64,000 nt of DNA, from the IMG/VR virus record IMGVR_UViG_3300015264_000001, positions 1 through 64,000 of that record; one strand, given 5' to 3'. The first letter of the stretch is position 1. Each line of letters starts with the position of its first letter. The notes below the pieces were generated by a model. That model worked only from the letters and a program-made list of their open reading frames with translations, searched no databases and had not been told where the DNA came from. A program made the translations under genes and the position numbers. Of this stretch, positions 3,922-48,923 are shown in pieces. The DNA is from a virus.

Positions 3922-4292
3922 TAATATTCCTTAGGTAAAATAGACTCGGGATCAAACTCCGTCCATGCTGTGCAATCTATCGCTTTAGCGTGTACTAGGT
4001 AACTATGGTTTATATTGCGACAAAGACCCCAAGCTTTCTTCTCTGTCTTTGCATTGCAAGTGCAATGCAAGCCGTTGTTGTGGATATCGCACATTATCGT
4101 ATGCGGGCAGCGCGTCTTTTCCCACAGCGCCATCGTTTTTACCATCAGCGCTGCCGTCTCCCACGCCTCCCTTGCTTGCTGTGTGTAAGTGTCTAACTCC
4201 TTCGCCACAACAGGATTACCAATCGAGCTTTGCACTTCGATCAGCTTTTTGTAATTGTAGTATAGATGTTTCAACAATTCCTCGTTGTTCAT
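3921..4292 (-). CDS. Cys/His-rich hypothetical protein
   Basis: 123 aa. ATG at 4292 was chosen because it overlaps the previous stop as ATGA and has GGGAGGGCG upstream; the open frame continues 27 codons further without a better start. The second half holds C-P-H, C-D-I-H, H-C-T-C, C-R and a final C, suggesting a metal-stabilised fold. Family unknown. Confidence 0.6.
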   Translation of the reverse strand: MNNEELLKHLYYNYKKLIEVQSSIGNPVVAKELDTYTQQAREAWETAALMVKTMALWEKTRCPHTIMCDIHNNGLHCTCNAKTEKKAWGLCRNINHSYLVHAKAIDCTAWTEFDPESILPKEY

Positions 4293-4702
4293 TTCGCGCC
4301 CTCCCTTCGCAGCACCGTGTCCGGCGGTGGGGAAGTTACGGCGAACCCGAGCGGGTGCCCGTCGAGGCACCATCGCGCGAGCTCCCCGGCGTCGTGTGCG
4401 GCCAGCGCCTTTTTCAGCTCCGGTATGTGAAGGCTTTCGTCGCCACTGCCGGGATTACAGCGCGAAAATAAAACCGATTCGGTTACCGAGCCGTACACGA
4501 CGAGTGACGGGGACAGTTTCAGCTTTGGCTTCTCCTGCGCTGCTCGCCAAATTATCGGCATCCCCACTGTGCTTCCAGACCGCCACAACCCAATTGGCGG
4601 CGGGGAGCTCTCCTGTGCCAGCGCGATTGGATGTTGTTCGCGGAGAGCAAAGGTTATTAGGCAAATGGAAACAAAAATCCCAGCGATCCAATAGTCTTTC
4701 AT
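4289..4702 (-). CDS. membrane-anchored or secreted hypothetical protein
   Basis: 137 aa, ATG at 4702 with SD AAGGAG. Residues 4-20 (YWIAGIFVSICLITFAL) form a hydrophobic segment; an ALAQ site at about 27-30 could be a signal-peptidase I site, so the mature part may be periplasmic. The rest has no recognised domain. ATGA overlap with the following gene. Confidence 0.6.
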   Translation of the reverse strand: MKDYWIAGIFVSICLITFALREQHPIALAQESSPPPIGLWRSGSTVGMPIIWRAAQEKPKLKLSPSLVVYGSVTESVLFSRCNPGSGDESLHIPELKKALAAHDAGELARWCLDGHPLGFAVTSPPPDTVLRREGAK

Positions 4703-4923
4703 CTTTTCGGTCTCCTTCCGTCGAACTCGAACTCGACGCGCTCCGCCAGCTGCCTTACGTAGCCAAGCAGCTCGCGAAACGTATCGGCCATTAAAGCTAA
4801 ATCACCTGCCAATTCCGGGTCCATTGTAGGATGCTCGCAGCGGCGAATGACATGGTTAATGACAGTTTTGTGGTTCTCCTGAAGCCGCTCGATTTCCCTC
4901 GCAATCATGAGTGGTTTAAGCAT
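4699..4923 (-). CDS. small helical hypothetical protein
   Basis: 74 aa, mostly alpha-helical (REIERLQENHKTVINHVIRR and a second helix to the C-terminus), ending in a basic GRRPKR. Coupled to the membrane-protein gene by a 4-nt overlap. No family recognised. Confidence 0.55.
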   Translation of the reverse strand: MLKPLMIAREIERLQENHKTVINHVIRRCEHPTMDPELAGDLALMADTFRELLGYVRQLAERVEFEFDGRRPKR

Positions 4924-4925
4924 CT

Positions 4926-5153
4926 CTAATCCCTTTCCGACAGGTATCCGCCATGATGCCGCAGCTGGACCTTTTCCAGCGTCTCGCGCGGTATGGCGTG
5001 AATATTGTGCAGCGCGTGCAGAACGCCGTACAGCACGTCGCGCTGCCCGTTTCCGTACGGCGTCTTAACGGACTCCGCGTCGAGCCCCTTAATCCGCTCG
5101 GCCAGCTGCTCGCCATAGTGCCGAACTTCGTCAAGTACCTTGTCGTTTTCCAT
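4926..5153 (-). CDS. small hypothetical protein
   Basis: 75 aa, ATG at 5153 with GAGGAG upstream. It is helical with a His-rich C-terminal half (LHALHNIHAI, QLRHHGG). No motif recognised. It lies 14 nt after the 32-aa membrane peptide gene and 2 nt before the next gene. Confidence 0.55.
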   Translation of the reverse strand: MENDKVLDEVRHYGEQLAERIKGLDAESVKTPYGNGQRDVLYGVLHALHNIHAIPRETLEKVQLRHHGGYLSERD

Positions 5154-5167
5154 CGCGCTCGCTCCTC

Positions 5168-5266
5168 TTACCTCGGTAGTTTCTGGAGAATCGTCAGCAG
5201 CAGAATGAAGTTTACGAGCGTCACTCCGCCGATGACGCCCAAAATAGCTCGATCTACGTGGTTCAT
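5168..5266 (-). CDS. 32-aa single-span membrane peptide
   Basis: ATG at 5266 with TGGAG 9 nt upstream. The product has one hydrophobic segment (ILGVIGGVTLVNFILLLTIL) and a basic C-terminus KLPR. Its codon order and tight spacing with the neighbours support a real gene. It is a small membrane peptide of unknown function. Confidence 0.5.
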   Translation of the reverse strand: MNHVDRAILGVIGGVTLVNFILLLTILQKLPR

Positions 5267-5295
5267 GTTAAAAACTCCAGTGTAGTCATTGGAGC

Positions 5296-5736
5296 TTACC
5301 CATCAATATCCTGTCTCTCCCCGCGCCGCCGCAGATCCTCCTCATGCCGCTTTGCGATTGCTGGGTTGCGCGAGAACACGAAGTACGGCGCTTTGGGATC
5401 AGCGAACTCGCTTACGTCGTCATGCCCAAACTGCTCGATGTCCCTGCACCGCGTCGTGACCGCCATGCGCGGATAGGTTGCGGCCTTAGACTCGATTACG
5501 CCATAGAGTACGAGCGAGGCCAGCCGCGCCAGCCAGACTTTATCCCCGCGCGTCAGTGGGCGCTCCTCTAGTAGGGTCGCATCAATCGCAGCCCGCAGGC
5601 TACTAAGCGAAGGCTCTTCTTCCGGAGGCGGCGGCGCTACATATTCGTGGTGCCCGCTGCGCCGCCTATCCTTGTGGACGCGGTTATTGATACTGCGCCC
5701 GCAGCACGGGAACGCGCAGCCGTAAGCGGCGGTCAT
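5296..5736 (-). CDS. hypothetical protein
   Basis: 146 aa; ATG at 5736 overlaps the upstream stop as ATGA, which is why I prefer it to a start 61 codons further up (that stretch is Arg/Pro-rich shadow). The N-terminal part has CAFPCCGR, then a proline-acidic linker (PPPPEEEP), then a helical domain with LTRGDKVWLARLASL. Family not recognised. Confidence 0.55.
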   Translation of the reverse strand: MTAAYGCAFPCCGRSINNRVHKDRRRSGHHEYVAPPPPEEEPSLSSLRAAIDATLLEERPLTRGDKVWLARLASLVLYGVIESKAATYPRMAVTTRCRDIEQFGHDDVSEFADPKAPYFVFSRNPAIAKRHEEDLRRRGERQDIDG

Positions 5737-5939
5737 GCCAGTGCCTCCAGCGCGGCGGCGATCGCCGAGCTCAGCAGGGGGTTGCCCGCCGAGTCCAGCG
5801 CGACCGGCAGGTACTGCCAATCGCAGGGGCCGTGGCAGATCAGCAGGTCGGCGGGGACGTTCTTCTGCGCGGGGAGCAGAACGGCCCTGCCGCTCGCGAG
5901 TGCGTTTTGTAGGGGACAAGCCAACTTATCGTTTTCCAC
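5733..5939 (-). CDS. small hypothetical protein
   Basis: 68 aa, GTG start at 5939, preceded by AGAAGG and lying inside the last 14 nt of the upstream gene. The C-terminal AIAAALEALA helix follows a CHGPCDWQYLP segment. No family recognised. Confidence 0.5.
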   Translation of the reverse strand: MENDKLACPLQNALASGRAVLLPAQKNVPADLLICHGPCDWQYLPVALDSAGNPLLSSAIAAALEALA

Positions 5940-6342
5940 GGCGCACCACCTTCTTTTTCTTGGCTACCGCAGCACGGCGGCGCTTCGGCTTGCGCTCGGA
6001 AGCCTCTTCTCGTCCACAAACGCAAGAACCGTAGCACCAGGGGCAATCCGGCAAGTAGCCTTCCGCCGCCTCTACCGCCGCCTTCTTGCGCTGCGCTTCG
6101 GCCAAGCTGGCCTTTAGCAGAGGCACCAGCGAGTACGCCCGCTCTGGCAACTGAGCTTCCAGCGTAAGCCTGCCGACTAGGACCTTATAGGGTCCCCACC
6201 CGCCCCGGTTCCACTCCTCTGTAGCCTCCAGGGCCTCGTCAATCACGGCCTGTTTATTCTCCCCGGTGAAGCAGGCCCAGTCGCCCTTCGGGCGGCGCGA
6301 AGGCGTTCCGTTTCTACTTACTACCACGGCTACGTACAGCAT
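5926..6342 (-). CDS. hypothetical protein with Cys cluster and basic tail
   Basis: 138 aa, ATG at 6342 with AGAAGG. Residues 1-75 look like a small alpha/beta domain (LYVAVVVSRNG ... YKVLVGRLTL); near residue 100 there is CPWCYGSCVCG, followed by a strongly basic tail (KRRRAAVAKKKKVVRRGKR). The metal-binding cluster plus basic tail suggests nucleic-acid contact. Family unknown. Confidence 0.55.
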   Translation of the reverse strand: MLYVAVVVSRNGTPSRRPKGDWACFTGENKQAVIDEALEATEEWNRGGWGPYKVLVGRLTLEAQLPERAYSLVPLLKASLAEAQRKKAAVEAAEGYLPDCPWCYGSCVCGREEASERKPKRRRAAVAKKKKVVRRGKR

Positions 6343-6371
6343 TTTACCTTCTTTCTTTTCATTTACAACTG

Positions 6372-6719
6372 TTATTTTATGGCGAATACGAAATTGTGCT
6401 TTTCCAAATCCTTCACCAGGATGACTTCGACGTTTCTGACTTGAGTACGTTCCGCTGCGATACCGTTACCCATTACGAACGCGTCAGGCACAACTTCAAT
6501 CGTTTCTTGACGAGTCCGCAAAAGTCTGCCGTAACCGGACGTCTCCTCCCAATATTGATAGGTCACGATGGCATGGTTGGCGTTGGGAACGTCGTGGACA
6601 CGCACTGCTACCGCGAATTGCCCACCTTCCGCGAATGTTTGCACATTGACCTTACCTTCATTTAAAGATTCCGAAAGTGCCACAACCGCGAGAAGTGTCA
6701 TTACAGCCAATATTTTCAT
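6372..6719 (-). CDS. secreted small hypothetical protein
   Basis: 115 aa; ATG at 6719 with GGGAGG SD, chosen over an upstream in-frame start lacking SD. The N-terminal MKILAVMTLLAVVALSES is a signal peptide. The mature part is beta-rich (VNVQTFAEGG, VAVRVHDVPN, AIVTYQYWEE) with no cysteines and no recognised fold. Confidence 0.6.
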   Translation of the reverse strand: MKILAVMTLLAVVALSESLNEGKVNVQTFAEGGQFAVAVRVHDVPNANHAIVTYQYWEETSGYGRLLRTRQETIEVVPDAFVMGNGIAAERTQVRNVEVILVKDLEKHNFVFAIK

Positions 6720-6721
6720 TT

Positions 6722-7021
6722 TTACTTTCCTCCCTTGATTTCTGTTGGCAGCAGTATGCGCCCGTCCGCCAGGCGGCAGGGCAGGTTTACGGCTCCGGTG
6801 CGGGGGTCGGTCTGGCAAAGTGGCAACGGTCGACGTGCGCCGGGCTTACCGGGCGGGGGTACCGGGGCGGCGCGTTGTACGTTAATCTGCGTGCAAACGG
6901 GCGCTGCCGGAGCAGCGGCAGCGACCACTGAGCGCTGCGACCCAGCGTAGTACCCTAGGCCCATGCCGCTTAAGACCAGGCCCGCGAAGATCAGGAACCA
7001 GAACACGTCTTCTTTGCGCAT
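6722..7021 (-). CDS. single-pass membrane protein with Pro/Cys-rich exterior
   Basis: 99 aa, ATG at 7021 preceded by TTGGAG. Residues 6-25 (VFWFLIFAGLVLSGMGLGYY) form a transmembrane helix. The rest is Ala/Pro-rich with three cysteines (VCTQ, PLCQ, LPCR) and could be disulphide-bonded outside the membrane. Spanin-like proteins can look like this, but the gene is far from the lysis cassette. Function unknown. Confidence 0.55.
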   Translation of the reverse strand: MRKEDVFWFLIFAGLVLSGMGLGYYAGSQRSVVAAAAPAAPVCTQINVQRAAPVPPPGKPGARRPLPLCQTDPRTGAVNLPCRLADGRILLPTEIKGGK

Positions 7022-15809: not shown

Positions 15810-17936
15810 ATGCCCCGCCCTGTCTCCGCCCTACAAGCCGCCCAGCGTGCCAAGACCGCCGACAAGAAGGCGCGGGCCGCCGCCACGCGCAAGACCCTGG
15901 ACTCGTTCCAGAACTTCGCGGCCAAGCTCGGCCTCGGCACGGACAATATCAGCAGCGGTGGCTCCTACGGCTACAACCCCATCACCCGCGTCCGCACGCT
16001 GCTGGAATGGATTCATCGCGGCTCCTGGCTCGGCGGTATCGCCATTGACGTGGTCGCCGACGATATGACCAAGCAGGGCGTCGAGTTGAAGGGCGACCTG
16101 GAGCCCAAGCAGATCGAGCAGCTACAACGTGTAGCTACGACCTTTGACGTTTGGGGCATGATCAACGAAACGGTAAAGTGGTCCCGGCTTTACGGCGGCT
16201 GCATCGCCGTTATGCTGATCGACGGACAGCTGCCGGAAACGCCATTGCGCCTAGATACGGTATCGAAGGGGCAGTTTCGCGGATTGATGGTGTTAGACCG
16301 CTGGATGATTGAGCCGTCGATGGAGACCTTGGTCACGGAGCCCGGGCCAGACATGGGGCTGCCCAAGTATTACCGCGTTGTTGCGGACGCTCCGGCGTTG
16401 CGGCGCATGAAAATTCATTATTCCCGTTGTTTGCGGCTAGAAGGCGTGCGCTTGCCCTATTGGCAAAAGGTGCAGGAGAATTTCTGGGGCATTTCTGTTC
16501 TAGAACGGCTGTACGACCGCATGATCGCCTTCGACTCCGCTACTACGGGTGCCGCGCAGCTAGTTTACAAGTCGTACTTGCGTACGTATAAAATAGACAA
16601 GCTGCGCGAAATTATTGCCACTGGGGGCGCGGCCGAAGCGGGTCTGCTAAAGTACGTGCAGATGATGACCCGCTTTCAGAACATCGAAGGTATAACGCTG
16701 TTGGACGCGACGGATGAGTTCGAAGCGCAAACGCACGGAGCTTTTGCTGGACTTAGCGATGCGTTGTTGCAATTTGGCCAGCAGTTAAGCGGGGCACTCC
16801 AGATTCCCCTCGTGCGGTTGTTCGGCCAATCGCCCGCAGGTCTGAACTCTACCGGAGAGTCGGACCTGCGGATGTATTACGACGGCATTACACAACAACA
16901 GAACCGTCATCTGTACACGCCCGTCGTGCGTATCTACCGTTGCATTGCAGCGAGCGAGGGGATTAAGCTAAACGATTCGTTCACCGTGGAGTTTAAGCCG
17001 CTATGGATCATGAACAGTTCGGAGAAGGCGGCGCTCGCCGGGCAGGTGGCTGCCGCCGTGACGCAGGTGGACCAGGCGGGCATTACGTCCAAGGAGACGG
17101 CGTTAAAAGAATTACGACAGTCGTCGCGTGTTACTGGCATCTTCTCGAATATTTCCGACGAGGACATTGCACGGGCCAAGTTAGCGCCCCCGCCCGGTGC
17201 GGCGGAAGCAGCTGCTTTGCAACAACAAGAACAATCTATGGAACACGCCGATCGCGATCAGGATCGTCAGGATGAGCCGCCCGAGCCGGAAACGGCAGCC
17301 AAGAAGAAAGCCAAGTCGAAAGATCGCAGGCGCACAAAAGACGCAATGTTAGGCGACCGCAGGGTGATGGGCTTTCCGGTCGTCATTGAGCACATTAAAG
17401 GCGAGTCACGCTACGGAGTTAATTTGCCCGCTGATTACGGTTACATTCGTCGCACGGACGGCGCGGACGCGGCGCAGATTGACTGTTTTGTCGGGCCGGA
17501 CGTGGCTGACGGGCGGATTTTTGTCGTCGACGCCTATGAGCGGGCGACGGGGAAGTTCAACGAGCATAAGTGCATGCTAGGCTATACTGACCGCGAGGCG
17601 GCGCTGGCAGCGTTCCGCGCTTACTACGGGCGTATGACCGATTTTAATCTTATTGGGTACGCGGGCGCGGCGACCGACGAGCAGGGCTTGCGGGCGTGGC
17701 TCGCGGAGCCGGGCGCGGGTAAGCGCCCCTATACGCCGCCGACAGACGTGCAATATGTTCCCGTTACGAGCGGCGAAATGAAGTGCTCGAACTGTGAGCA
17801 CTATGATACGGGCATCTGCACGGATGCAGAGACGCAGCGCGATCCCCGTGTGCCGGAGACGCGGGACGGGTTGAAGCTGGTGATGCCGACTGGATGGTGC
17901 AAGGAGTTCGAAGTGAAGGTTTCGGCCAGAAAATAA
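15810..17936 (+). CDS. portal protein fused to inorganic-pyrophosphatase-like and Cys-rich domains
   Basis: 708 aa. Residues 20-440 match the DUF1073-type portal: 'FAAKLGLGTDNISSGGSYG', RTLLEWIHRGSWLGGIAIDVVADDM split over residues 60-90, and the LFGQSPAGLNSTGESDLRMYYD segment near 335-357. A Gln/Glu/Lys-rich linker follows (about 465-510). Residues 517-635 resemble the InPase domain of phage polyvalent proteins (IEHIKGESRYGVNLPADYG, IDCFVGPD, EHKCMLGYTDREAA). Residues 658-703 hold KCSNCEHYDTGIC and GWCKEFE, a four-cysteine module often seen at phage portal or head-protein ends. The portal forms the dodecameric DNA gate. Confidence 0.85.
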   Translation: MPRPVSALQAAQRAKTADKKARAAATRKTLDSFQNFAAKLGLGTDNISSGGSYGYNPITRVRTLLEWIHRGSWLGGIAIDVVADDMTKQGVELKGDLEPKQIEQLQRVATTFDVWGMINETVKWSRLYGGCIAVMLIDGQLPETPLRLDTVSKGQFRGLMVLDRWMIEPSMETLVTEPGPDMGLPKYYRVVADAPALRRMKIHYSRCLRLEGVRLPYWQKVQENFWGISVLERLYDRMIAFDSATTGAAQLVYKSYLRTYKIDKLREIIATGGAAEAGLLKYVQMMTRFQNIEGITLLDATDEFEAQTHGAFAGLSDALLQFGQQLSGALQIPLVRLFGQSPAGLNSTGESDLRMYYDGITQQQNRHLYTPVVRIYRCIAASEGIKLNDSFTVEFKPLWIMNSSEKAALAGQVAAAVTQVDQAGITSKETALKELRQSSRVTGIFSNISDEDIARAKLAPPPGAAEAAALQQQEQSMEHADRDQDRQDEPPEPETAAKKKAKSKDRRRTKDAMLGDRRVMGFPVVIEHIKGESRYGVNLPADYGYIRRTDGADAAQIDCFVGPDVADGRIFVVDAYERATGKFNEHKCMLGYTDREAALAAFRAYYGRMTDFNLIGYAGAATDEQGLRAWLAEPGAGKRPYTPPTDVQYVPVTSGEMKCSNCEHYDTGICTDAETQRDPRVPETRDGLKLVMPTGWCKEFEVKVSARK

Positions 17937-20024: not shown

Positions 20025-20051
20025 TTCTTGCGAGCGGAAAGGAGATTGTGC

Positions 20052-21962
20052 ATGAAAAATCGAATCTTGTTGGCGTTCGCGTTGTTGTTGGCTCCGTTTG
20101 CCTCTGCGCAAACGACGATCAATAAAACCTACACGATTAGCGCCAGCGGAGGTACCGCAGATATTCAGAATCTTTACGGTACCTTTAACCCTACCTTCGA
20201 GGAAATCCCGAACGGCAGCCCCGCCACGGTAAGTATTACAGTGCAGGGCTGCGGTAAGGGAACCAACGCTAACCCCAGCGTGCCGACCTGCGACGCCATT
20301 GCCGGGCTCACAAACACTTCAACGGCGGCGGCGATGGTGACGGCGGCGGTGACGAAGTTTTATACCCACTACATTGTCACCGCGACCTTTACCGGAGGCA
20401 CAAACCCGAGCATCACCGTTAACGCCGCCTTTAGTAACGCTCGCCAGGGTGGAAGCAGCGGTGGCAGCGGCACGGTAACCAGCGTAGCTACGACATCGCC
20501 GATCACTGGCGGGCCTATCACCACCACGGGAACTCTGGCCTGCGCCACCTGCGTTGTGGCTTCGGCCCCGGGCGTGGGTGTTGCCCACTTCGCCGGGTCT
20601 ACGCAGACCGTAACCAGTTCCCTTGTGGCCTTGGCTGCCGACGTTAGCGGGCAGTTGCCGATTGGTGCCGTCGGCAGCGCGGGGCTGTCAGGCACCGGTG
20701 CGTTGGCCGTTTCCGCTGCTGGGGCTATTTCCTGCGCCACCTGCGCCACTACAACCAACGGCGGGGCGTTATCAGGTACGGCCCCCGTGGCCGTTTCTGC
20801 TGCCGGAGCTATTTCCCTGTCCGGGACCGCTGGCCAGGTTCCAAACGGTGCGACCGGGGCGTTTACTCCAACGCCCACGCTGGGAATTCAGAACACGACG
20901 CAAGGAACTCTTACCATTGCCGGAGCCGCCGCCTCCACTGGCCAAATTTCCATCAATATAGCTGGAGCCACGGCTAACCCTTTAGTGATTGTCCCGGGAG
21001 CTAACGCGGGCACTGTCACGCTTACTGGCCCCACTACTGGTGGCACCATCCCCTCTGCCGTCACTGCCCCGGTCACGCTGAGCGCGGCGGGCAACTTAGG
21101 GTGCGCGACTTGCGTCACGGCAGGCAGCACTCTGACCTCCAACAGCATCGTGCTGGGGCAGGGCGGTCAGGCTGCCAAGGTGGCTGCCGGGCTGACGACG
21201 AACGGGACCACGACCTTAACTATCGGTGTTGCGGGCAGCGCGAACGGCACGCTGGCGCTAGCGGGTACGACTTCTGGCACGGCGACTCTTGTAGCTCCAT
21301 CGGTGGCCGGAACTACAGGGAACCCGATCGTGATTTCCAACGCGATCCAGCTGCCCGACGGCACGCAGGCGCTGCCCTCGGACCGGCTCACGACGCAGGC
21401 GTTCGGGCGCTACTACGGCTCCACGGTCACTGCCGGGGCCTGGGTTTACGGTACGACTTCCACTGATATGTTCGCGCTGTCTACGACGGGCACGGCGCAG
21501 CTGGGCATGAACTCGGCGGGCGTGTTGACTTGGGGCAGCAGCACGACGGTGCTGAACGCCGCCACGATGAACGCCGACACCGCGCTGTGCAAGAACGCCC
21601 CTGGGGTGGTTTCGGTGGGTAACGGAGCTTCCTGCAACACGAACGGGCGATTGAAGGCGGCGGCGTACATTTCCGTCGGCACACCGTTCACTAGTAGCGC
21701 AGGGTGCACGGACTCGGCTTTAACTGGTGGGGCTTCCGTGGGGAAGTTTACCAACGGGGCGACCGGCACTTGCAGCACGACAATTACGATCAACAATACT
21801 GGTACTTCCCCCAACGGTTGGACTGGCCCAGTGACCAACCAGACTCAAACTCCTGCCGTTTCGACTTGCCGCGTTTCCTCCAGTACGACAACCACCGCCG
21901 TACTTAGTTGCACGGGAGTTGTCGTGAATGATATTATCAGCTTCGCGCTGTTTGGTTACTAG
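20052..21962 (+). CDS. large secreted fibre-like protein with Sec signal peptide
   Basis: 636 aa; ATG at 20052 with GAAAGGAGATTGTGC upstream. MKNRILLAFALLLAPFASAQ is a signal peptide (ASA|Q). A Ser/Gly linker follows near residue 140, then GTVTSVATTSPITGG, a motif of phage fibre proteins. Three 'CATC' repeats (LACATCVVA, ISCATCATT, LGCATCVTAG) mark modules in a Gly/Thr/Ala-rich beta-repeat region to about residue 420. The C-terminal 200 residues hold paired cysteines and end in an FALFGY motif typical of fibre tips. A secreted fibre in the head module is unusual; it may be a head fibre or a protein released to the cell surface. Confidence 0.65.
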   Translation: MKNRILLAFALLLAPFASAQTTINKTYTISASGGTADIQNLYGTFNPTFEEIPNGSPATVSITVQGCGKGTNANPSVPTCDAIAGLTNTSTAAAMVTAAVTKFYTHYIVTATFTGGTNPSITVNAAFSNARQGGSSGGSGTVTSVATTSPITGGPITTTGTLACATCVVASAPGVGVAHFAGSTQTVTSSLVALAADVSGQLPIGAVGSAGLSGTGALAVSAAGAISCATCATTTNGGALSGTAPVAVSAAGAISLSGTAGQVPNGATGAFTPTPTLGIQNTTQGTLTIAGAAASTGQISINIAGATANPLVIVPGANAGTVTLTGPTTGGTIPSAVTAPVTLSAAGNLGCATCVTAGSTLTSNSIVLGQGGQAAKVAAGLTTNGTTTLTIGVAGSANGTLALAGTTSGTATLVAPSVAGTTGNPIVISNAIQLPDGTQALPSDRLTTQAFGRYYGSTVTAGAWVYGTTSTDMFALSTTGTAQLGMNSAGVLTWGSSTTVLNAATMNADTALCKNAPGVVSVGNGASCNTNGRLKAAAYISVGTPFTSSAGCTDSALTGGASVGKFTNGATGTCSTTITINNTGTSPNGWTGPVTNQTQTPAVSTCRVSSSTTTTAVLSCTGVVVNDIISFALFGY

Positions 21963-21963
21963 A

Positions 21964-23142
21964 ATGCGCAACATATTTGCAATTTTATTGCTGCTGTTTG
22001 CTACGCTGGTTAGCGCGCAGGCGCAGACGCACGTCTTCCCTGCGACGGACACTAACAACAATTTTACTGGTACGAATCGATTCACCGCTGGACACACCGA
22101 CGGCCCCGTGACGTTCGGCTCGCTTCCGGCGGAGTTGGACGGGCTGACGATATTCTGCTCCGACTGCTCGCAGACCATACCCTGTGCCGCCTTTGGTACC
22201 GGGGCCGTTGCCACGGGCGTAGCCGGGGCGTGGAGCTGCTCCAACGGGGGGGCACCGCTGACGGGCGTCTACTCCGGCGCGGTCTCTTCGACGGCGGGGC
22301 ACGCGACTATAGGCTTCGCCACGGTGAGCGGCTCGGCGGTGCCGGAGTTCTCTTGGAACACGGGAGCGCCGCAGATCCTCGCGTTTTTGAACTCGGACAC
22401 GACGGGCACGGCTACGACGGCGTTGGGGGCCAAGAACACGCCGACACTTTGCTCTGGCTCGGTCTCGCGCGGCGTGGATGCCAGTTTTAACGCTGTCTGC
22501 TCTACGCCCGGCGTGCTGACCATTACGGAGACTACCGGGATAGTCGCGCTAGCGGCAAACTTAAACCTTTGGGGCGACTCGGTCACGCACTACCCCATGT
22601 TCAATGAGAACTCGGGCGCGACGCTCTCGGTGAATGGCCCCTACGCGGCGGCGTGGGCAATCGGGAACGTTTGGGGCTCGGCGACTACCATTGTTCCCAG
22701 TGTTGTGGCTAACAAGATGCGCATTTGGGGTGTTACGCTCCCGTTCCGCAAGACGCTGACCAAGATTTACTACGACGTGGGCACGGTGGATAACACGGCG
22801 AATACCTATGACATAGGGTTGATGGACCGCTCTTGCAATTTGATAGCGCACTGCGGGGCAACGGCGGGCACGACGTTCGCGCCCTCCACAGGGACCAAGA
22901 ACTGCACGGTAGTGGGCTCGCCGGTTGTGCTACAGATCGCGGACTACTACCTCGCTATCACTACTAGCTGTGGCGCGTCGTGCGCTGCCTTTAGCGGAAG
23001 CTCGGGGAACGGGCAGTGGTCGTTCTACAATGCCATCGCCGATCAGCCCGTCACCGCAGGTGGCACCCTGAACGGCGGGTGCACGCCGCCTACGGACGCG
23101 CCCTCGCGCGGTGCGGTGGTGCCGATGGTGCTCCTGCAATGA
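21964..23142 (+). CDS. secreted beta-rich protein with Sec signal peptide
   Basis: 392 aa; ATG at 21964 lies just after the previous stop. MRNIFAILLLLFATLVSAQAQ is a signal peptide. The mature protein has several cysteine pairs (FCSDCSQ, TSCGASCAAF) and a C-terminal 180-residue domain (MRIWGVTLPFRKTLTKIYYDV to VPMVLLQ) resembling a jelly-roll-like binding domain found at fibre ends. No enzyme motif. ATGA overlap with the next gene shows it belongs to the same secreted island. Confidence 0.6.
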   Translation: MRNIFAILLLLFATLVSAQAQTHVFPATDTNNNFTGTNRFTAGHTDGPVTFGSLPAELDGLTIFCSDCSQTIPCAAFGTGAVATGVAGAWSCSNGGAPLTGVYSGAVSSTAGHATIGFATVSGSAVPEFSWNTGAPQILAFLNSDTTGTATTALGAKNTPTLCSGSVSRGVDASFNAVCSTPGVLTITETTGIVALAANLNLWGDSVTHYPMFNENSGATLSVNGPYAAAWAIGNVWGSATTIVPSVVANKMRIWGVTLPFRKTLTKIYYDVGTVDNTANTYDIGLMDRSCNLIAHCGATAGTTFAPSTGTKNCTVVGSPVVLQIADYYLAITTSCGASCAAFSGSSGNGQWSFYNAIADQPVTAGGTLNGGCTPPTDAPSRGAVVPMVLLQ

Positions 23143-25772
23143 GCAGGCTATTTTTGCTGGCCTTGATTCTGCTTACGTCCGCAGCCTGCTGGGGCGCGAA
23201 CTTCTATGTGGATTGCTACGCCACGACGGGGGACACCAACCCGGGTACCTCGTTCACGCGGCCCTGGCGGCGTCCGTTGCAGGCCACGGTCTACAGCAAC
23301 ACGACGCACTTCAATCCCGACGACCACGTCTACTTCCGCACGGACGGCTGCGTTTGGCAATCGGGGCTGGTGATCTCCAGTAGCGGCACGAGCGGGCACC
23401 CCATCCTGTACGACACCTACAGCCTGGTGAACGGGCTCCCGGTCACGCCCGGCACCGCCGCGTTCCACTTCAGCGGCCAGCTGCCAGTCGCCGCCGGGTT
23501 CTGGACGAACTCGTCGGGCAACCTTTGGCAAACTGTGCTGTACGCGGTGAACCCCGACGGTACGACGCACTGCGGGGCGCTCGCGAATTGTGTAAAGTGC
23601 TACGGCTCGCTGTTCAACGCCTGCCTGGACCAGCCGCTACAGGTGCTGAACAAGGTCCGGTTCGCGAAGGTCTTCGGCTCCAACCGTGGCGTCGGCACTA
23701 CGCCCGCGCAGAATTACGACTGGAACTTCGACCCCGGCTTCAACCCGCTCGACTGCGACCTGGTTACCGGCATCTGCACCTGCGCCCACGGCTGCACGCA
23801 GACTTTAACCGTCTATTCTTCGGGTGGCAATCCGGCGACGGCCTATGGGGCCGTGGTTCCAATAGCGATTTCGGGCGAGCAGACGCCGACGAATGGCGGC
23901 TCGACACTGATCAGCATTAAGAACGCGCAGTGGCTACAAGTGCAGCACTTCCAGCTGGACTGGTACGACTCCCTGGGCCTGACGATCAGCGACGCTTCCG
24001 ACCACATCTGGATCGCGAACGGCGCGGCCAATTCGATGGTGGAGAACGGCGAGACTATTTTCGGGGCGCAGTACTCGCAGCTGGGCTTCTGGGCCAACCT
24101 CACCGCTGCCACGGACATCCACCTTTGGAACGTCGACGCTGACATGAACTACGACGGCTTCGAGTTCGGGGCCGTTACGGGATGTAATGGGTGCCTGTTT
24201 GATCTTCAGAATTGCCGGGCCTACGGGAACCGGCTTTTCGGATTGGTTTCTAACGTTACGGGCGCAGGCGTGCTGACGCACGACTACTGCCACTTCTACG
24301 GAAATAATCTGGGTATATCGCTGGAAACGGACTTCGGGGCCGGAGCGGGCGCTACCGTACCTGTCGCAGCTGCACACGACGTTGTCGCTCTAACGCCGCC
24401 ATGGATAATGAACTGGAAGCGCTGGCCCGCGCTGGTCACCTGGACCTTCGACGATTGCGGTCTGGTGCAATATTCGTGCGAATACCTGGGGACGCTGCTG
24501 CCGCTAATTAACGCCATAGGCATTACGCCGTCCGTTGCTGTGGTAACCGGGCAGACGTACTCCCCAGCAGCGATTCCCGTAGTACAAGGCTGGATTAACG
24601 CGGGTTCCGCCGATCCCAACTCGCACTCCAATTCACATGGGTATACAGCACCGCCCGCGTTTACCGGGGGCGCTTCGGGCGCGTGTAGTGACAACCCGGG
24701 AGGGGTGCCTTGCGACGTGTTCAAGATTCAATATTCGGGCACTGTCGCGACGCAGGCGCATCTGACGGTTACTCATGACGGCGTGGGCGGCGGCACGCTT
24801 ACCATTTCTACTTTCCCCGACGACGCGGCGTGCGACGTTAGCTGGAACCTGAAGCCCGTCGATCCGGGCGGCGTACCGGGACTGACGCAGATCGACACGG
24901 TATCCAACGCTATCTCGGCGCTGTTGGGGCGCGGCAATTGCTTTACTTTGGGTCTGGTGGCCTATCAGAATTCCGCCGTGAAGGGCGCGTCGCGCATGTT
25001 CTCGCTGGCGGATGTATCTAACCAGGATATTTGGGGCGCCCCGTACTCGGTTCTATACGACGAGCACAACTTTGAACTGGTGGAGTTCGACCAGGCGCAG
25101 AAATGGCTGAACGCGAACTTTACCGGGCTTCCAGTGAACCGCGTAGCGGTAATGCCGTTCATGTTCTCCGACCCGCAGACGCAGGTGATCCTGGCGGGGC
25201 TCGGCTATAAGGGCATTCGCGGCACGGGCTCATCCAAGCCCTGCTGCGGCAACACAACCACGCTGGCCAACGGGTACAACGTATTCGACATGACCAGCCA
25301 GGGCACCGTGCCTAATTTGCAGAATCTCTCCTACGACGCGATGCGCCGCTATATGTTGAACTATTTGTGGAAGGACGCGGCGTGGGGTAACCCGATGGGC
25401 TTCTTTATGCACCTGTACGAGCTTCCCCCGGACCAAGTGCAGAACGAACTGAAGGTAATGCTCTCCGCTGGGGCGACGTTTAAATCGAACACGCAGCTTA
25501 TGAATTTGTTGTTGGCCTGTAACCAATTGCCCATCACACCGCCCGTCGGTGTTGGATACACGGGTAGCTTCGTGCCCGGCAGCTTCTACACCTGCCCCGC
25601 CCTGGCTACGGGCGCGGAGATGGACTTCCGCCCGACGGTCAATTCGCCCACCGTGCACGCGGGCGCGAACCTCGGCTCGCCCTACAACATCGACATGGCG
25701 GGGAACGCTCGCGGGGCGACGTGGGACATAGGAGCCTACCAGTTCGTCCCGCAGAACATAGGTATTCACTAA
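23139..25772 (+). CDS. secreted beta-helix protein with inserted NodB-type polysaccharide deacetylase
   Basis: 877 aa. MSRLFLLALILLTSAACWGA is a signal peptide. Residues 20-400 look like a pectate-lyase-type right-handed beta-helix ('NFYVDCYATTGDTN' start, later CRAYGNRLFGL and CHFYGNNLGISL turns). Residues 425-800 carry CE4/NodB features: VTWTFDDCG with TFDD at 436-439 and HSNSHGYT with HxxxH at 496-500, and the late FFMHLYELPP strand. Residues 825-870 (MDFRPTVNSPTVHAGANLG, DIGAYQ) return to a beta-helix C-terminal cap. CE4 enzymes remove N- or O-acetyl groups from polysaccharides. The likely role is exopolysaccharide or envelope modification. No typical membrane anchor. Confidence 0.75.
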   Translation: MSRLFLLALILLTSAACWGANFYVDCYATTGDTNPGTSFTRPWRRPLQATVYSNTTHFNPDDHVYFRTDGCVWQSGLVISSSGTSGHPILYDTYSLVNGLPVTPGTAAFHFSGQLPVAAGFWTNSSGNLWQTVLYAVNPDGTTHCGALANCVKCYGSLFNACLDQPLQVLNKVRFAKVFGSNRGVGTTPAQNYDWNFDPGFNPLDCDLVTGICTCAHGCTQTLTVYSSGGNPATAYGAVVPIAISGEQTPTNGGSTLISIKNAQWLQVQHFQLDWYDSLGLTISDASDHIWIANGAANSMVENGETIFGAQYSQLGFWANLTAATDIHLWNVDADMNYDGFEFGAVTGCNGCLFDLQNCRAYGNRLFGLVSNVTGAGVLTHDYCHFYGNNLGISLETDFGAGAGATVPVAAAHDVVALTPPWIMNWKRWPALVTWTFDDCGLVQYSCEYLGTLLPLINAIGITPSVAVVTGQTYSPAAIPVVQGWINAGSADPNSHSNSHGYTAPPAFTGGASGACSDNPGGVPCDVFKIQYSGTVATQAHLTVTHDGVGGGTLTISTFPDDAACDVSWNLKPVDPGGVPGLTQIDTVSNAISALLGRGNCFTLGLVAYQNSAVKGASRMFSLADVSNQDIWGAPYSVLYDEHNFELVEFDQAQKWLNANFTGLPVNRVAVMPFMFSDPQTQVILAGLGYKGIRGTGSSKPCCGNTTTLANGYNVFDMTSQGTVPNLQNLSYDAMRRYMLNYLWKDAAWGNPMGFFMHLYELPPDQVQNELKVMLSAGATFKSNTQLMNLLLACNQLPITPPVGVGYTGSFVPGSFYTCPALATGAEMDFRPTVNSPTVHAGANLGSPYNIDMAGNARGATWDIGAYQFVPQNIGIH

Positions 25773-35355: not shown

Positions 35356-35480
35356 ACCCATTCGCTTGGCGTCCGGTGATGCAGGGCTTCTGGCGGCAGA
35401 GGGAGCTTTGGGACGGCACGTATACGGGTGACGACTTGCTGGACATGCACGCGATACTGGATTTAAGGGATAAAAAATGA
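34864..35480 (+). CDS. tail assembly chaperone, -1 frameshift form (gpGT-like)
   Basis: Translation in frame to codon 147 (TTC at 35302-35304), then a -1 shift, continues with 58 more codons: RRGVRKNAVDPADEDG, DPFAWRPVMQGFWRQRELW, GDDLLDMHAILDLRDKK, stop TGA 35478-35480. The extension is clearly protein-like and its stop overlaps the tape-measure ATG as ATGA. The predicted product is 205 aa. The ratio of short and long forms is known to be critical for tail assembly in other phages. Confidence 0.75.
35298..35304 (+). other. -1 frameshift slippery site T_TTT_TTC
   Basis: Zero-frame codons CCT TTT TTC place the heptamer in the exact X_XXY_YYZ register. The -1 frame is open for 58 codons downstream. 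A further A-run (GAAAAAACG at 35317-35325) could add slippage. I did not identify a clear downstream pseudoknot. Confidence 0.75.
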
Positions 35481-44403: not shown

Positions 44404-44613
44404 ATGGATTTTATTACAGCAAAAGATTTCGTGCGGTCGCGCTACCCGCGTGCCGTTTGCCACGGCCCAGTGAATATCCTTTGTTGCGCGGAGGGCGAAA
44501 ATGTCAAGAGATTCGTGATTCTCGGCGATCCTACGCGGCAGCTGGGCGAGGGCGAAACCGAGGAAGCGGCCTGGGCGAATGTTGCGAAAACTTTGAAGGA
44601 GACATCGAAATGA
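44404..44613 (+). CDS. small hypothetical protein between fibre genes
   Basis: 69 aa, ATG at 44404 with GAAAGGTAGCTC. Short mixed alpha/beta protein (VKRFVILGDPTRQLGEGETE, AAWANVAKTLKE). It overlaps the giant fibre gene by ATGA. Could be a fibre chaperone by position; no family recognised. Confidence 0.55.
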   Translation: MDFITAKDFVRSRYPRAVCHGPVNILCCAEGENVKRFVILGDPTRQLGEGETEEAAWANVAKTLKETSK

Positions 44614-47600
44614 AGAAGCTGCTTGCGCTGCTAACACTAGTGATACTTTCTTCGGTAGCTTGCCCGGGGCAGCAGAACTTCATGACCGTGACGGCGTCGA
44701 ACATCCTCACGACGCTCAGCGGCCAGCCGCAGCCGCTCCCCTCAGGCTCGATCATCTTCCAGCCCACGGACCTGAACGGGAACCCCGTGGGCTACCAAGT
44801 CGGCGGCGGCGGGCAGCTGGTCAGCTTCCCGACCGTCTGCTCCATTGTCGCCGGGGCGATCACGGGCAGCTGCCAGCTGGCGAACGTCTCGATTACGAAC
44901 CCGATGAACGTCTGCTTTAACACAACTGTCAAGGACGGCTCTAACCGCGTCGTCCTCGGCGGGCCCGGTAGCGGGTACAACTGCGTCCAGCCGCAGACCA
45001 CGAACAGCTGGTGCGCGAGTGGCATCTGCAACTTCGACAGCTTTGTGCCGTCGATACCGGGCGCGGCGCTGGCCCTATTGGGCCCGGCCCGCACGTTCTC
45101 GCTGGGCGGCGTCTACGCCTCCACCTGCCCCAGCGGGCAGGCGTTTAACGGCCTCGCCGACGGCACGGGGCGGTTCTCCTGCGTATCGACGAGCGGCGGA
45201 GGCGGAGGCGCGGTCTCGGCGGTCTTCGGTCGTACGGGCGCGGTGGCGGCGCAGACGGGCGACTACACGGTGGCGCAGGTGACGGGCGCAGCGCCCTCGT
45301 TCAACCCGTCGTTTACGGGCACGATCACGCTTCCGATTACCGGCATCAATCAGTGCCTCCACGTCAACTCTTCGGGCCAAATCAGCGGCACCGGAATCGA
45401 CTGCGGCTCGGGCGGAGGCGGCGCGGTCGCGTCGGTTTTCGGCAGGTCTGGCGTGGTGATCGCCGCGATCGGCGACTACACGGTTTCCCAGGTCACCGGG
45501 GCGGCCCCATCCGCCAGCCCCGCGTTCAGCGGCGCTCCGACCGCGCCGACGGCGACTGTAGGCACGAACACGACGCAGCTCGCCACTACGGCATTCGTAC
45601 TTGCCAATCAGGCCGTGGCCAGTGTCTTTGGACGTACAGGAGCAGTCGTCGCAGCGGGCGGTGACTACTCCGTAGCGCAGGTGACGGGCGCAGCTCCGCT
45701 AGCTAGCCCGGCGCTCAGTGGCACGCCGACCGCGCCCAACGCCACGGTAAGTACCAACACGACGCAAATAGCCACTACGGCGTACGTCCTGGGCCAGCTG
45801 GCCTCGACGCTGCCCGTGATGGACGGCGCGGCGGCGGCGGGGACCTCGCTGCTAACGTCCCGCGCGGACCACGTGCATCCCAGCGACACCAGCCGCGCCC
45901 CGACTGCGAGCCCCGTCTTTACCGGGACTATCACTACGCCGATTACGAACGCCCCTGCGCTCAGCACGGGCGGCGGCGGTGTTGTCGTTGCGGCGACGAC
46001 GAGCGGCTCCGGTGCGCTGGCGCTCGTTACTAGTCCAGCTTTGCTAGGTACACCGACTGCGCCGACAGCTGCGCCGGGCACGAACACCACGCAGCTATCA
46101 ACTACGGCTTTCGTAACCGCCGCCATCGCCGCCGGGGTGAGCCCGGGCGGCACGGCAGGTGGTGATCTTACGGGAACCTACCCGAACCCGAACGTCGCCC
46201 GCGTAAACGGCGTCACCATGCCGATCAGCGGTACAGTCCTAGGCACAAATGGTAGTGGGCAGATCGTGACCGCCACGACGACGGGAACGGGCGCGATTGT
46301 CGCACTGGCTGCCAGCCCCTCGCTTACCGGAACGCCTGTAGCGCCCACGGCCGGCGTTTCCACTAACACGACGCAAGTAGCCACAACTGCGTTCGTCTTG
46401 GGTCAGGTCGGCACGGCAACACCGCTCATCAACGGCACCGCTGCCGTCGGTACGTCGTTGCTCTACGCCCGGCAGGACCACGTACATCCGATCGACACTA
46501 CCCGCGCACCGCTTGCATCGCCGAATTTTACTGGAGTGCCTAGCGGACCCACGGCAACGCCAGGTACCAGCTCGACGCAGTTCGCCACAACAGCCTTTGT
46601 CGCCGCCGCCATAGTGGCTCCGGGCGTGTCAACGGAATTCCTTTACAACAACGGCAGCGGCGTGACGAGCCCGGTCACGGGCAGCACGGTGGATGGGAGT
46701 TTTAACGTCCACTTCCCCGCGAACGTCGACATCGCCAGCGGGTGCTACAGCATCGGCGGCGTGTGCATTCCCAGCACGCCGACGACGATCCCCGGCATCA
46801 ACGGGCAGGTGATGTACAAGTTCGGTGGTGCTCTGGCGGCGAGCTCGGGGTTCACGTTCGACCAGTCCACAGGAAACATTGTCGTCGGTGGTACCGTAAC
46901 CGCTGCCGGATTTATCTCCACCGGGGCAGGCAGCTGGTTCGTGCAGTCTCCCTTCGGCGCGGCAACGCACGCGGGCGTGGCGGGGCAGAACCTCACCACG
47001 TTCGACTCCGGCACGGGTGACTTATTCTGCTCGGCCAACGGCGTCACACCCGACTATTGCCGTACCTCGTTTTCTAAGATCATTACGGGCGGCAATGCTA
47101 ATGCGCTATCCATCACTTCGGGCGGCTCGCTGATAGCTACCGGGACTGGGACCATTTCAGCCACTAGCGTGACCGGGTTCTCGCCAACGGCGGGTAAGAC
47201 GCTTAGTCTCACCAACACACTTACACTCTCCGGTACGGACGGCTCGACGATCAACGCCGTTACGGGCGGGACAGTTAGCTATGTCGGCAGCTTCCCCGCC
47301 ACGGCGCACCTTATTGGTACCAACGGGTCGAATTTACCCATCGTGGCCACGGCGGTAGACGTTGCTGCCGTGCAATATGTGGCTGCCGCAGGAGCGGTTA
47401 ACGTACTTACCGCCACGCTCGCGCCTGTGCCCGCCTCGCTGACCACTGGTCTGCAAGTGCGCATTCTGCCGAACCTGGCCAACACCACGACGACGCCAAC
47501 CCTAAACGTCAACGCGCTGGGCGCGAAGACAATCACGAAGCTGGGCACCGCCGCGCTGGCGGCTGGCGACATCACCACGACGGCGATCGCCATATTGGTC

Positions 47601-48923
47601 TATGATGGGACGGAGTGGCAATTGCAGAACCCGCAGACTGGGACGGGCGGTGGCGCCGGGACCGTTACTACCACGGGGTCGCCCGCCAGCGGCAACCTTT
47701 CCAAGTTCTCCGGCGCAGCGTCGATCACCAACGCCGACCTGACTGGAGACGTTGGCACAACGGGCACGTTGGTTACCACTTTGGCTTCGGTCGGTTCCCC
47801 CGGGTCCTGCGGCGACGCCACCCACAGCTGCGTCATTACTTTTGATGCCAAAGGTCGCGAGACCGCCCAGACCAGCACCGCTATCTCTGCTGTAGGCGGC
47901 GCTGTGGGCGCGGCGATCACTTCCTCCACCACCGTCACCGTCACTAACCCGACCGCCGCCACTGATACGCAGTTGACGGAGCTCTCGCTGCCCGGCGGGT
48001 ACCTGAACCTGGCGGGGCAGGCCGTCGTTATCCACGGCGGCGGCGTCTACTCCACCGGGGCCGCGTCCTCGCCGACCATCACCATTTCGGCCAAGCTCTG
48101 CACCGTCTCCGGCTGCGGTAGCGGCACCGTGGTACCCCTTTCCGCCATCGCCAGCGGGGCGGCCTCGGCCTCGGCCACGACGAACGCGCCCTGGAACTTC
48201 ACGGTTAGCGCCGTGACCAACGCGGCGGGAGCCACCGGCAACCTGATCGTCAAGGGCTCGCCCGGGCTAGCCGTGGACCTGTCGAACGTGGTCTCGGCGG
48301 CGGCGACGGTCTACCCCGACGTCAACACGGCGGTCAGCTCGAACATCGACCTCACCGCCCCGCTGTTCCTCGACTACACCGTGGCGCTCTCCGCCACCGG
48401 GGCCTCGAACATCGTGAAGCAGCAGTACGCGCTGATCGCCCCGCAAACCTCAGCCCCTCCGCCCGACGTCATCAGCTACCAGGTGCCCGGGACGACCAGC
48501 GCGGTCACCGCCGTGAGCGGCGTCGATACCACGCTATACACGGTGACCCTGCCAGCCAACCTGTTCTGCCCCGGCTGCGGCGTGCACATCCTGGCCGCCG
48601 CCCGCCACCAGACTGGGACTACCTCTACCAACTGGCAGCTGAAATTCGGCAGCGCTTCTAACTTTAACTTGACCACCAACACCGACGGCACCGCGTCGCA
48701 GCGGTTCGACGTGAACATCATGGAGGACCCGGTCATCGCCAACACGCAGTACCTGTACCAGGAGGGCGGGCAGCGCGGGTCCACCCTGATCACCAACTCT
48801 CCCGGCCCCACGACCTACACACAAACCACATCGGGCACCATCGTGCTGACATTCAGCATCAACCAGGCGGCGACCGAGACCTTCACGCCGCAGGAGTTTC
48901 TCGTGACGAGGTTCCAACACTAA
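44610..48923 (+). CDS. giant secreted fibre-like protein with collar repeats
   Basis: 1437 aa, ATG at 44610. MKKLLALLTLVILSSVACPGQQ is a signal peptide; SVAC is an imperfect lipobox. Residues 190-330 and 330-420 carry 'VFGRTGAVAAQTGDYTVAQV'-type repeats (three copies), and residues 290-690 carry five to six 'PTAP.A..GTNTTQ.ATTAFV' fibre collar repeats. The middle is Thr/Gly/Ala-rich beta repeat; the last 250 residues form a cysteine-containing head domain (DYTVALSATGASNIVKQQYA; CPGCGVHILAAARHQTG). It looks like a phage tail fibre but has an export signal. Confidence 0.7.
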   Translation: MKKLLALLTLVILSSVACPGQQNFMTVTASNILTTLSGQPQPLPSGSIIFQPTDLNGNPVGYQVGGGGQLVSFPTVCSIVAGAITGSCQLANVSITNPMNVCFNTTVKDGSNRVVLGGPGSGYNCVQPQTTNSWCASGICNFDSFVPSIPGAALALLGPARTFSLGGVYASTCPSGQAFNGLADGTGRFSCVSTSGGGGGAVSAVFGRTGAVAAQTGDYTVAQVTGAAPSFNPSFTGTITLPITGINQCLHVNSSGQISGTGIDCGSGGGGAVASVFGRSGVVIAAIGDYTVSQVTGAAPSASPAFSGAPTAPTATVGTNTTQLATTAFVLANQAVASVFGRTGAVVAAGGDYSVAQVTGAAPLASPALSGTPTAPNATVSTNTTQIATTAYVLGQLASTLPVMDGAAAAGTSLLTSRADHVHPSDTSRAPTASPVFTGTITTPITNAPALSTGGGGVVVAATTSGSGALALVTSPALLGTPTAPTAAPGTNTTQLSTTAFVTAAIAAGVSPGGTAGGDLTGTYPNPNVARVNGVTMPISGTVLGTNGSGQIVTATTTGTGAIVALAASPSLTGTPVAPTAGVSTNTTQVATTAFVLGQVGTATPLINGTAAVGTSLLYARQDHVHPIDTTRAPLASPNFTGVPSGPTATPGTSSTQFATTAFVAAAIVAPGVSTEFLYNNGSGVTSPVTGSTVDGSFNVHFPANVDIASGCYSIGGVCIPSTPTTIPGINGQVMYKFGGALAASSGFTFDQSTGNIVVGGTVTAAGFISTGAGSWFVQSPFGAATHAGVAGQNLTTFDSGTGDLFCSANGVTPDYCRTSFSKIITGGNANALSITSGGSLIATGTGTISATSVTGFSPTAGKTLSLTNTLTLSGTDGSTINAVTGGTVSYVGSFPATAHLIGTNGSNLPIVATAVDVAAVQYVAAAGAVNVLTATLAPVPASLTTGLQVRILPNLANTTTTPTLNVNALGAKTITKLGTAALAAGDITTTAIAILVYDGTEWQLQNPQTGTGGGAGTVTTTGSPASGNLSKFSGAASITNADLTGDVGTTGTLVTTLASVGSPGSCGDATHSCVITFDAKGRETAQTSTAISAVGGAVGAAITSSTTVTVTNPTAATDTQLTELSLPGGYLNLAGQAVVIHGGGVYSTGAASSPTITISAKLCTVSGCGSGTVVPLSAIASGAASASATTNAPWNFTVSAVTNAAGATGNLIVKGSPGLAVDLSNVVSAAATVYPDVNTAVSSNIDLTAPLFLDYTVALSATGASNIVKQQYALIAPQTSAPPPDVISYQVPGTTSAVTAVSGVDTTLYTVTLPANLFCPGCGVHILAAARHQTGTTSTNWQLKFGSASNFNLTTNTDGTASQRFDVNIMEDPVIANTQYLYQEGGQRGSTLITNSPGPTTYTQTTSGTIVLTFSINQAATETFTPQEFLVTRFQH

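Follow-up and report, generated by a model that had tools for sequence, protein, structure and literature searches.

A putatively exported beta-helix protein with an inserted CE4-like deacetylase domain in a phage probably infecting Acidobacteriota

The stretch of DNA analysed here, referred to below as the window, comes from a soil virus and covers 64 kb of its IMG/VR record (IMGVR_UViG_3300015264_000001, 72.5 kb in all), and it carries at positions 23139-25772 a gene whose product we call P0001. An original prediction, made from the letters alone, had described this phage gene as an intact frame of 877 amino acids (aa) encoding an exported protein with a beta-helix start, a polysaccharide deacetylase region of the carbohydrate esterase family 4 (CE4/NodB) type and a beta-helix C-terminal cap, the deacetylase being inserted before the cap. 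The frame is indeed open on the + strand over 877 codons, its ATG start shares four bases (ATGA) with the stop codon of the preceding gene, and the two motifs quoted for the deacetylase region, TFDD at residues 436-439 and HSNSH at 496-500, were located exactly where they had been placed. The N-terminus is that of a typical Sec signal peptide, followed by ANFYVD..GDTNPGTS. Coordinates of all features are collected in Table 1.

Taken alone, P0001 reveals little of its nature. We found no match for it in Pfam, PHROGs or PDB, nor among the INPHARED phages, and none for its deacetylase segment in plasmids; neither PF01522 nor PF13229 matches it when it is searched singly. A hit of the deacetylase segment to Rhodococcus phage Peregrin (INPHARED, E 3) was dismissed as chance, as it spans a gene end. 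When separate pieces of the protein were compared with profile libraries, only chance-level matches were obtained, with one exception, the choice-of-anchor Q model (NF041518, NCBIfam), which matches residues 828-869 at E 7.5e-4 when the whole protein is searched and at E 3.8e-5 when the search is confined to its last 90 aa (23.8 bits, below the 25-bit cut-off). This sub-cut-off match falls where the C-terminal cap had been proposed. From P0001 alone, the identity of the putative deacetylase would depend on two short motifs.

Relatives were thus needed, and they were not easily found. A single-sequence scan of viral contigs returned nothing beyond a 100% copy of the gene on another contig, and the corresponding genome scan gave no match. 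Searching viral contigs with the pattern WTFDD[CG]G yielded 12 stretches, of which one was the same gene and 11 were unrelated by phmmer. A profile of the capsid protein led to prophage kin in named genomes, some of them Acidobacteriota, and the route that worked was a phylum search seeded from an Acidobacteriota genome bearing such kin prophage genes, followed by profiles. Among 396 Acidobacteriota genomes searched with P0001, eight had a match at E <=1e-4, two of them near full length (42% and 38% identity) and six confined to the N-terminus. With a profile built on the deacetylase region, matches were then obtained in 25 of 300 genomes belonging to one Acidobacteriota family, in 2 of 396 drawn evenly across the phylum (both being the two genomes found earlier), and in none of 398 genomes from the phylum of a Paraburkholderia genome. 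Profile scans of viral contigs added five loci (L157, L158, L201, L202 and L203). With the flanks of 22 of the 25 matching genomes examined, the family comprises 27 homologous loci, from 22 Acidobacteriota genomes and five viral contigs; 18 of the 28 known sequences entered a full-length alignment. Judging solely by this distribution of homologues, the window virus probably infects a member of the Acidobacteriota. In records of the window's kin, mostly fragments and covering 50 of 71 listed loci, PF01522 matched in 0/50 and choice-of-anchor Q in 1/50, the latter below cut-off.

The aligned family, unlike P0001 alone, supports the proposed kinship of the inserted region to CE4/NodB enzymes along several lines. 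PF01522 (Polysacc_deac_1) matches 16 of the 18 full-length members at E up to 1, with a best value of 4.2e-10, while PF13229 (Beta_helix) matches 17 and NF041518 two. We aligned with hhalign the family core, that is, the CE4-like part without a nested domain described below, to ten cellular CE4 proteins from four Acidobacteriota genomes (12 of 22 loci had been dropped because the motif pair escaped the filter), and obtained a probability of 90.4, E 1.4e-6 and a score of 49.0. In this alignment the DD of the family falls on the DD of cellular CE4 (FDDG) and HSxSH falls on HTxTH, and the aligned core bridges the site of the nested domain and extends to the motif-3 proline, P673. With the nested domain retained, the alignment was shorter (probability 84.3, E 7.2e-6). 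As controls, the beta-helix part and the nested domain each gave a probability of 0.1 against CE4, and the best of 50 column-shuffled cores scored 19.5. Moreover, D438, D439, H496, S497, S499 and H500 show no variation in 28/28 sequences, and both P673 and H758 are kept in 27/27 of the sequences covering those sites. H758 sits in a GxFxHxxEL context; the hhalign alignment stops short of this region. In PDB, an early three-member profile gave E 0.24 to a CE4 enzyme, 2c71, the match spanning motifs 1 and 2; we treat it as a lead only, and it was absent when the 18-member profile was searched against the same database.

There are, on the other hand, points which weigh against a functional CE4 enzyme. 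Classical CE4 enzymes carry a motif 3 of the form RxP[FY], a motif 4 resembling DxxDW and a motif 5 with a catalytic His. No member of the 18-member alignment has the motif-3 Arg (V671 in P0001), that alignment shows no clear counterpart of motif 4, and P0001 on its own is not only missed by PF01522, but also scores below zero against the cellular CE4 model. Two AlphaFold2 runs on six sequences (the window protein and those of five viral contigs) gave mean pLDDT values of 33.1 and 35.0, too low for the models to be used. It might be argued from the absent Arg and the motif 4 not found, as well as from the MPFM that P0001 has where 24 of 26 covering relatives have P-G, that the domain is catalytically dead and that the protein binds glycans as an adhesin or belongs to the structure of the fibre, and inactive polysaccharide deacetylase homologues, BA0330 and BA0331, have been reported (PMC4505593). 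However, DD and HxxxH are kept in all 28 sequences even though relatives compared directly with P0001 share only 34-48% identity with it over the domain, which is difficult to account for if the site has no function, and we consider a dead enzyme improbable. Because the motif-3 Arg is absent while P673 is kept, P0001 is, as far as sequence comparison can tell, a divergent CE4-like relative and not a filed CE4 member. It shares with CE4 (PF01522) the TxDD and HSxSH motifs, a C-terminal His, the order of these elements and profile similarity; it differs in lacking the motif-3 Arg, in bearing a nested domain between motifs 2 and 3, in being set into a beta-helix protein and in that P0001 singly stays under detection. 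An SGNH esterase identity found no support, the order of motifs being that of CE4, and a generic pectate lyase was set aside as no more than 3 of the 18 members match PF22842 (best E 6.1e-5).

Table 1. Predicted features of P0001 and of the two genes preceding it, in window coordinates
Feature	Position	Strand	Basis
Gene for putative exported beta-helix / CE4-like deacetylase P0001	23139..25772 (incl. stop codon)	+	877 aa, open frame
Signal peptide, ~residues 1-20	23139..23198	+	rule-based test, family comparison
Beta-helix region, ~residues 21-415	23199..24383	+	PF13229 in 17/18 members; PDB profile match
N-terminal part of CE4-like domain, ~residues 425-505	24411..24653	+	PF01522 in 16/18 members; hhalign
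Motif 1, T436-F-D-D439 (presumed base D438, presumed metal ligand D439)	24444..24455	+	D438, D439 28/28
Motif 2, H496-S-N-S-H500 (presumed metal ligands)	24624..24638	+	H496, S497, S499, H500 28/28
Nested domain in CE4-like domain, ~residues 506-645, beta-rich by sequence	24654..25073	+	alignments; hhalign to CE4 probability 0.1
C-terminal part of CE4-like domain, ~residues 646-797, with P673 and H758 (FFMHLYEL)	25074..25529	+	P673, H758 27/27
Beta-helix C-terminal cap, choice-of-anchor Q-like	25530..25769	+	NF041518; alignment
Upstream gene, 404 aa, signal peptide	21928..23142	+	C-terminal ~145 residues match tip of giant fibre-like proteins (6/27 loci)
Fibre-like gene, signal peptide, opens the putatively exported block (an internal ATG is probably the real start)	20028..21962	+	

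The proposed beta-helix start finds support in the family profile, which over the N-terminal ~100 residues matches the beginning of the beta-helix of LnbX-type lacto-N-biosidases (PDB 7v6m, 5gqc; E 6.4e-18 for chain 7v6m). The LnbX-type model NF047897 (NCBIfam) matches 6 of the 18 members, and this type is presumably GH136. The likeness has its bounds, as the match ends past the first coils and includes nothing that corresponds to the CE4-like insertion. The order signal peptide, helix, CE4-like part and cap is the same in 18/18 aligned members. Eight N-terminal relatives (L143, L144 and L147-L152, some truncated by stretch ends) show no match to a CE4-like model, and one of them, L150, with 544 aa, matches both the helix start and the cap (independent E value (i-E) of 7.9e-7 for the cap), which shows that the combination of helix and cap also occurs free of the deacetylase. 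That the CE4-like domain is inserted before the cap, as had been suggested, and more exactly just before the last helix coil, appears well supported by these sequence comparisons. What had been overlooked is a second level of insertion, namely the nested domain of ~140 residues (~506-645) which separates the HxxxH motif from the remainder of the CE4-like domain and is present at differing lengths in homologues.

The architecture seems to vary further within the family. In two homologues (L197 8059-10704 and L198 2054-4564) an extra insert, fibronectin type III-like by eye, lies just before motif 3 and would constitute a second nested insertion. In four others (L156 4174-10725, L157 6509-11683, L181 7429-13485 and L183 7682-13900) the deacetylase is fused to a second large region, giving open reading frames (ORFs) of 1725 to 2184 aa; this region resembles a separate 1372-aa ORF of L155, and by eye it contains another beta-helix and a glycosidase-like part.

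In the window, P0001 is surrounded by genes for a terminase, a portal protein, a Mu F-like protein, a DUF2213 protease and a major capsid protein, followed by sheath, baseplate and tail-fibre genes; by this predicted gene content we assign the virus to the contractile-tailed phages. The phage origin of the gene is supported by this context and by that of its homologues. In 24 loci (the 22 genomes together with L157 and L158) we recognised a conserved cassette in which a dual-specificity phosphatase, a giant fibre-like ORF, the deacetylase and a terminase large subunit (TerL) are followed by a HipA-like kinase, a DUF3037 protein, portal, protease and capsid protein. A TerL ORF is present in 23 of the 24 loci, some loci being too short to show every cassette gene. 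Several cassettes lie within long bacterial contigs (up to 1.12 Mb), which is consistent with integrated prophages. One might still suppose that P0001 is an ordinary host gene acquired by the virus, or a product of contig misassembly, without any phage role, as the close viral kin examined have no homologue and relatives of the N-terminal helix are found in bacterial genomes. Yet a second viral contig has the deacetylase, protease and capsid genes at 100%, and homologues occupy the phage cassette and occur in five more viral contigs, so that we regard this explanation as very improbable indeed; a bacterial housekeeping gene was ruled out by the cassette context.

Comparison of these loci also suggests how the gene travels. 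The window TerL, portal, capsid and protease have no match in the 27 loci at E 1e-3. The C-terminal domain of the 21928-23142 product, in turn, matches the C-terminal end of the fibre-like ORFs in 6/27 loci. The window virus is thus, by sequence, a phage of a different backbone with the same pair of a fibre-tip gene and a predicted deacetylase gene. L016, the contig of closest kinship (its protease is 73% identical), lacks the upstream gene and the deacetylase as a block, and its fibre gene runs directly into the protease gene. This interval has the look of a cargo site for exported proteins that act at the surface. In L020 the same interval (3967-6775) holds two adjacent ORFs which by eye resemble SGNH/GDSL esterases, and the first of them seems, again by eye, to start with a signal peptide.

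Whether P0001 leaves the cell was assessed with a simple rule requiring a basic start, a hydrophobic core and small residues at the cut site, applied on the cassette loci to ORFs of at least 60 bits and not cut by a locus end. The rule and the family comparison both agree with the proposed export through Sec: signal peptides were called in 20/24 deacetylase ORFs and 14/14 fibre-like ORFs, and on the same loci in 0/23 TerL, 0/15 portal, 0/11 protease, 0/4 capsid, 0/14 HipA-like, 0/18 phosphatase and 2/18 DUF3037 proteins. As for the four misses, the start in L155 lies beyond the 70 codons searched, that in L181 is found in a different frame, the ORF of L195 is truncated where its contig ends and L189 has an Arg near the hydrophobic core. 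Of 30 window genes tested, those at 20028, 21928, 23139, 48925 and 54281 were called with signal peptides, as were, at weaker scores, those at 35477 and 53242; homologues of the fibre-like gene at 20028..21962 carry one in 5/5 kin.

Some observations call for caution about export. In a second kin set the same rule called 11/120 capsid, 10/116 g27213-like, 7/75 sheath, 5/106 protease, 3/45 hub and 3/18 TerL proteins (portal 0/72, wedge 0/10), so the rule is crude, with false positives around a tenth. A signal peptide may also not exclude a location in the virion, because the tail fibre encoded after the baseplate genes at 44610-48923 (listed from 44457) likewise starts with a clear one, read from a probable ATG at 44610 behind AAGGAG. 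It is worth considering that P0001 is a virion-borne enzyme of the tailspike type, set into or onto the tail next to the fibres and deacetylating the receptor polysaccharide at adsorption. Its gene stands among head and tail genes and adjoins fibre genes, the baseplate-proximal fibre of this phage has its own signal peptide, and virion deacetylases are in print for Aristophanes (PMC8471582) and HFTV1 (PMC12494034). However, 20 of 24 homologues carry a signal peptide, in contrast to the head and packaging proteins from those loci, on which none was called, and P0001 has no recognisable virion-anchoring N-terminal domain, as its beta-helix begins directly after the signal peptide. We find a tailspike role unlikely, though far from negligible. 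The signal peptide on the 44610-48923 tail fibre is in itself unusual for a virion fibre. The gene adjoining that fibre (48925-52665) encodes 1246 aa with a signal peptide, is partly beta-helix-like by eye and has no PHROG match.

What, then, might P0001 do? The explanation we favour, and hold with moderate confidence, is that a Sec-exported deacetylase and its fibre-tip partner act on a surface glycan of the cell producing them. P0001 would be a metal-dependent polysaccharide deacetylase, a relative of the CE4/NodB superfamily, whose beta-helix grips a long surface glycan of the Acidobacteriota host, while the CE4-like domain, bearing its nested accessory domain, strips acetyl groups off the bound glycan. 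It would probably partner the exported fibre-tip protein encoded by the directly preceding gene; the two genes move between phage types as one module. Most likely the pair would act extracellularly, on surface polysaccharide of the cell that makes it, while that cell is a lysogen or is late in infection, and the outcome would be an altered surface layer that phages need to recognise or cross. The sequence analysis itself shows the gene, the order of its domains, their kinship, the invariance of the presumed catalytic residues, the signal peptides (by rule), the phage context and the exchange of the module; we infer the activity, the metal, the substrate, the host, the place of action and the benefit, including the help in penetration or the block to superinfection suggested in the original prediction. 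On one hand, action at the surface of the producing cell is suggested because the signal peptides fit it; on the other hand, riding on virions is suggested by the gene neighbourhood and the printed precedents. A bolder and more tentative idea is that Acidobacteriota phages export fibre-like proteins together with a partner deacetylase via Sec, instead of fitting them into the tail in the cytoplasm. Equally tentative is the thought that such an exported pair coats the lysogen or the infected cell, or joins virions after lysis, and thereby edits surface glycans and excludes phages.

Phage deacetylases which edit host surface sugars are already known, and those found in print are parts of virions. 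The turret head protein of HFTV1 is similar in being a CE4-like domain of a tailed virus with a proposed action on host glycans, but it belongs to a virion head turret, has an archaeal host and comes with a carbohydrate-binding module, not a beta-helix (PMC12494034). The gp41 tailspike of Aristophanes likewise takes O-acetyl off a host capsule, and pretreating cells with the enzyme blocks infection; it differs in its SGNH hydrolase fold and virion location, and the available part of that account mentions no signal peptide (PMC8471582). Deacetylase genes in Acidobacteriota viruses are not new as such, because a polysaccharide deacetylase is listed, in the part available without detail, among the predicted functions of five viral genomes (PMC11924767). 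The signal-peptide pattern described here is of note since target proteins of phage diversity-generating retroelements (DGR) were reported to lack signal peptides, which was taken as support for their phage origin (PMC6199706), whereas lambda Lom, encoded between tail genes, with a signal peptide and expressed in the lysogen, offers a precedent for exported proteins inside a tail gene block (PMC12309495). Among titles and abstract starts, our literature search returned no account of this architecture or of exported phage fibres, a search on carbohydrate esterase family 4 and phage no phage enzyme, and one on NodB and tailspike no paper. The present case is a whole family in a poorly studied soil phylum that joins a CE4-like enzyme to a beta-helix, with a nested domain inside the enzyme and a predicted export signal on both the enzyme and its partner fibre. 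If export is true, the module might be a new means by which prophages remodel and guard the host surface, or else fibre maturation in these phages departs from the textbook.

Two further observations concern neighbouring genes. The Acidobacteriota prophage cassette keeps the dual-specificity phosphatase and a HipA_2 kinase/DUF3037 pair among its late genes (L155 1330-1893, L158 7426-9297 and others). In the window, the C-terminal region of the portal protein (15810-17936) matches the InPase Pfam model PF18823 with E 1.3e-23.

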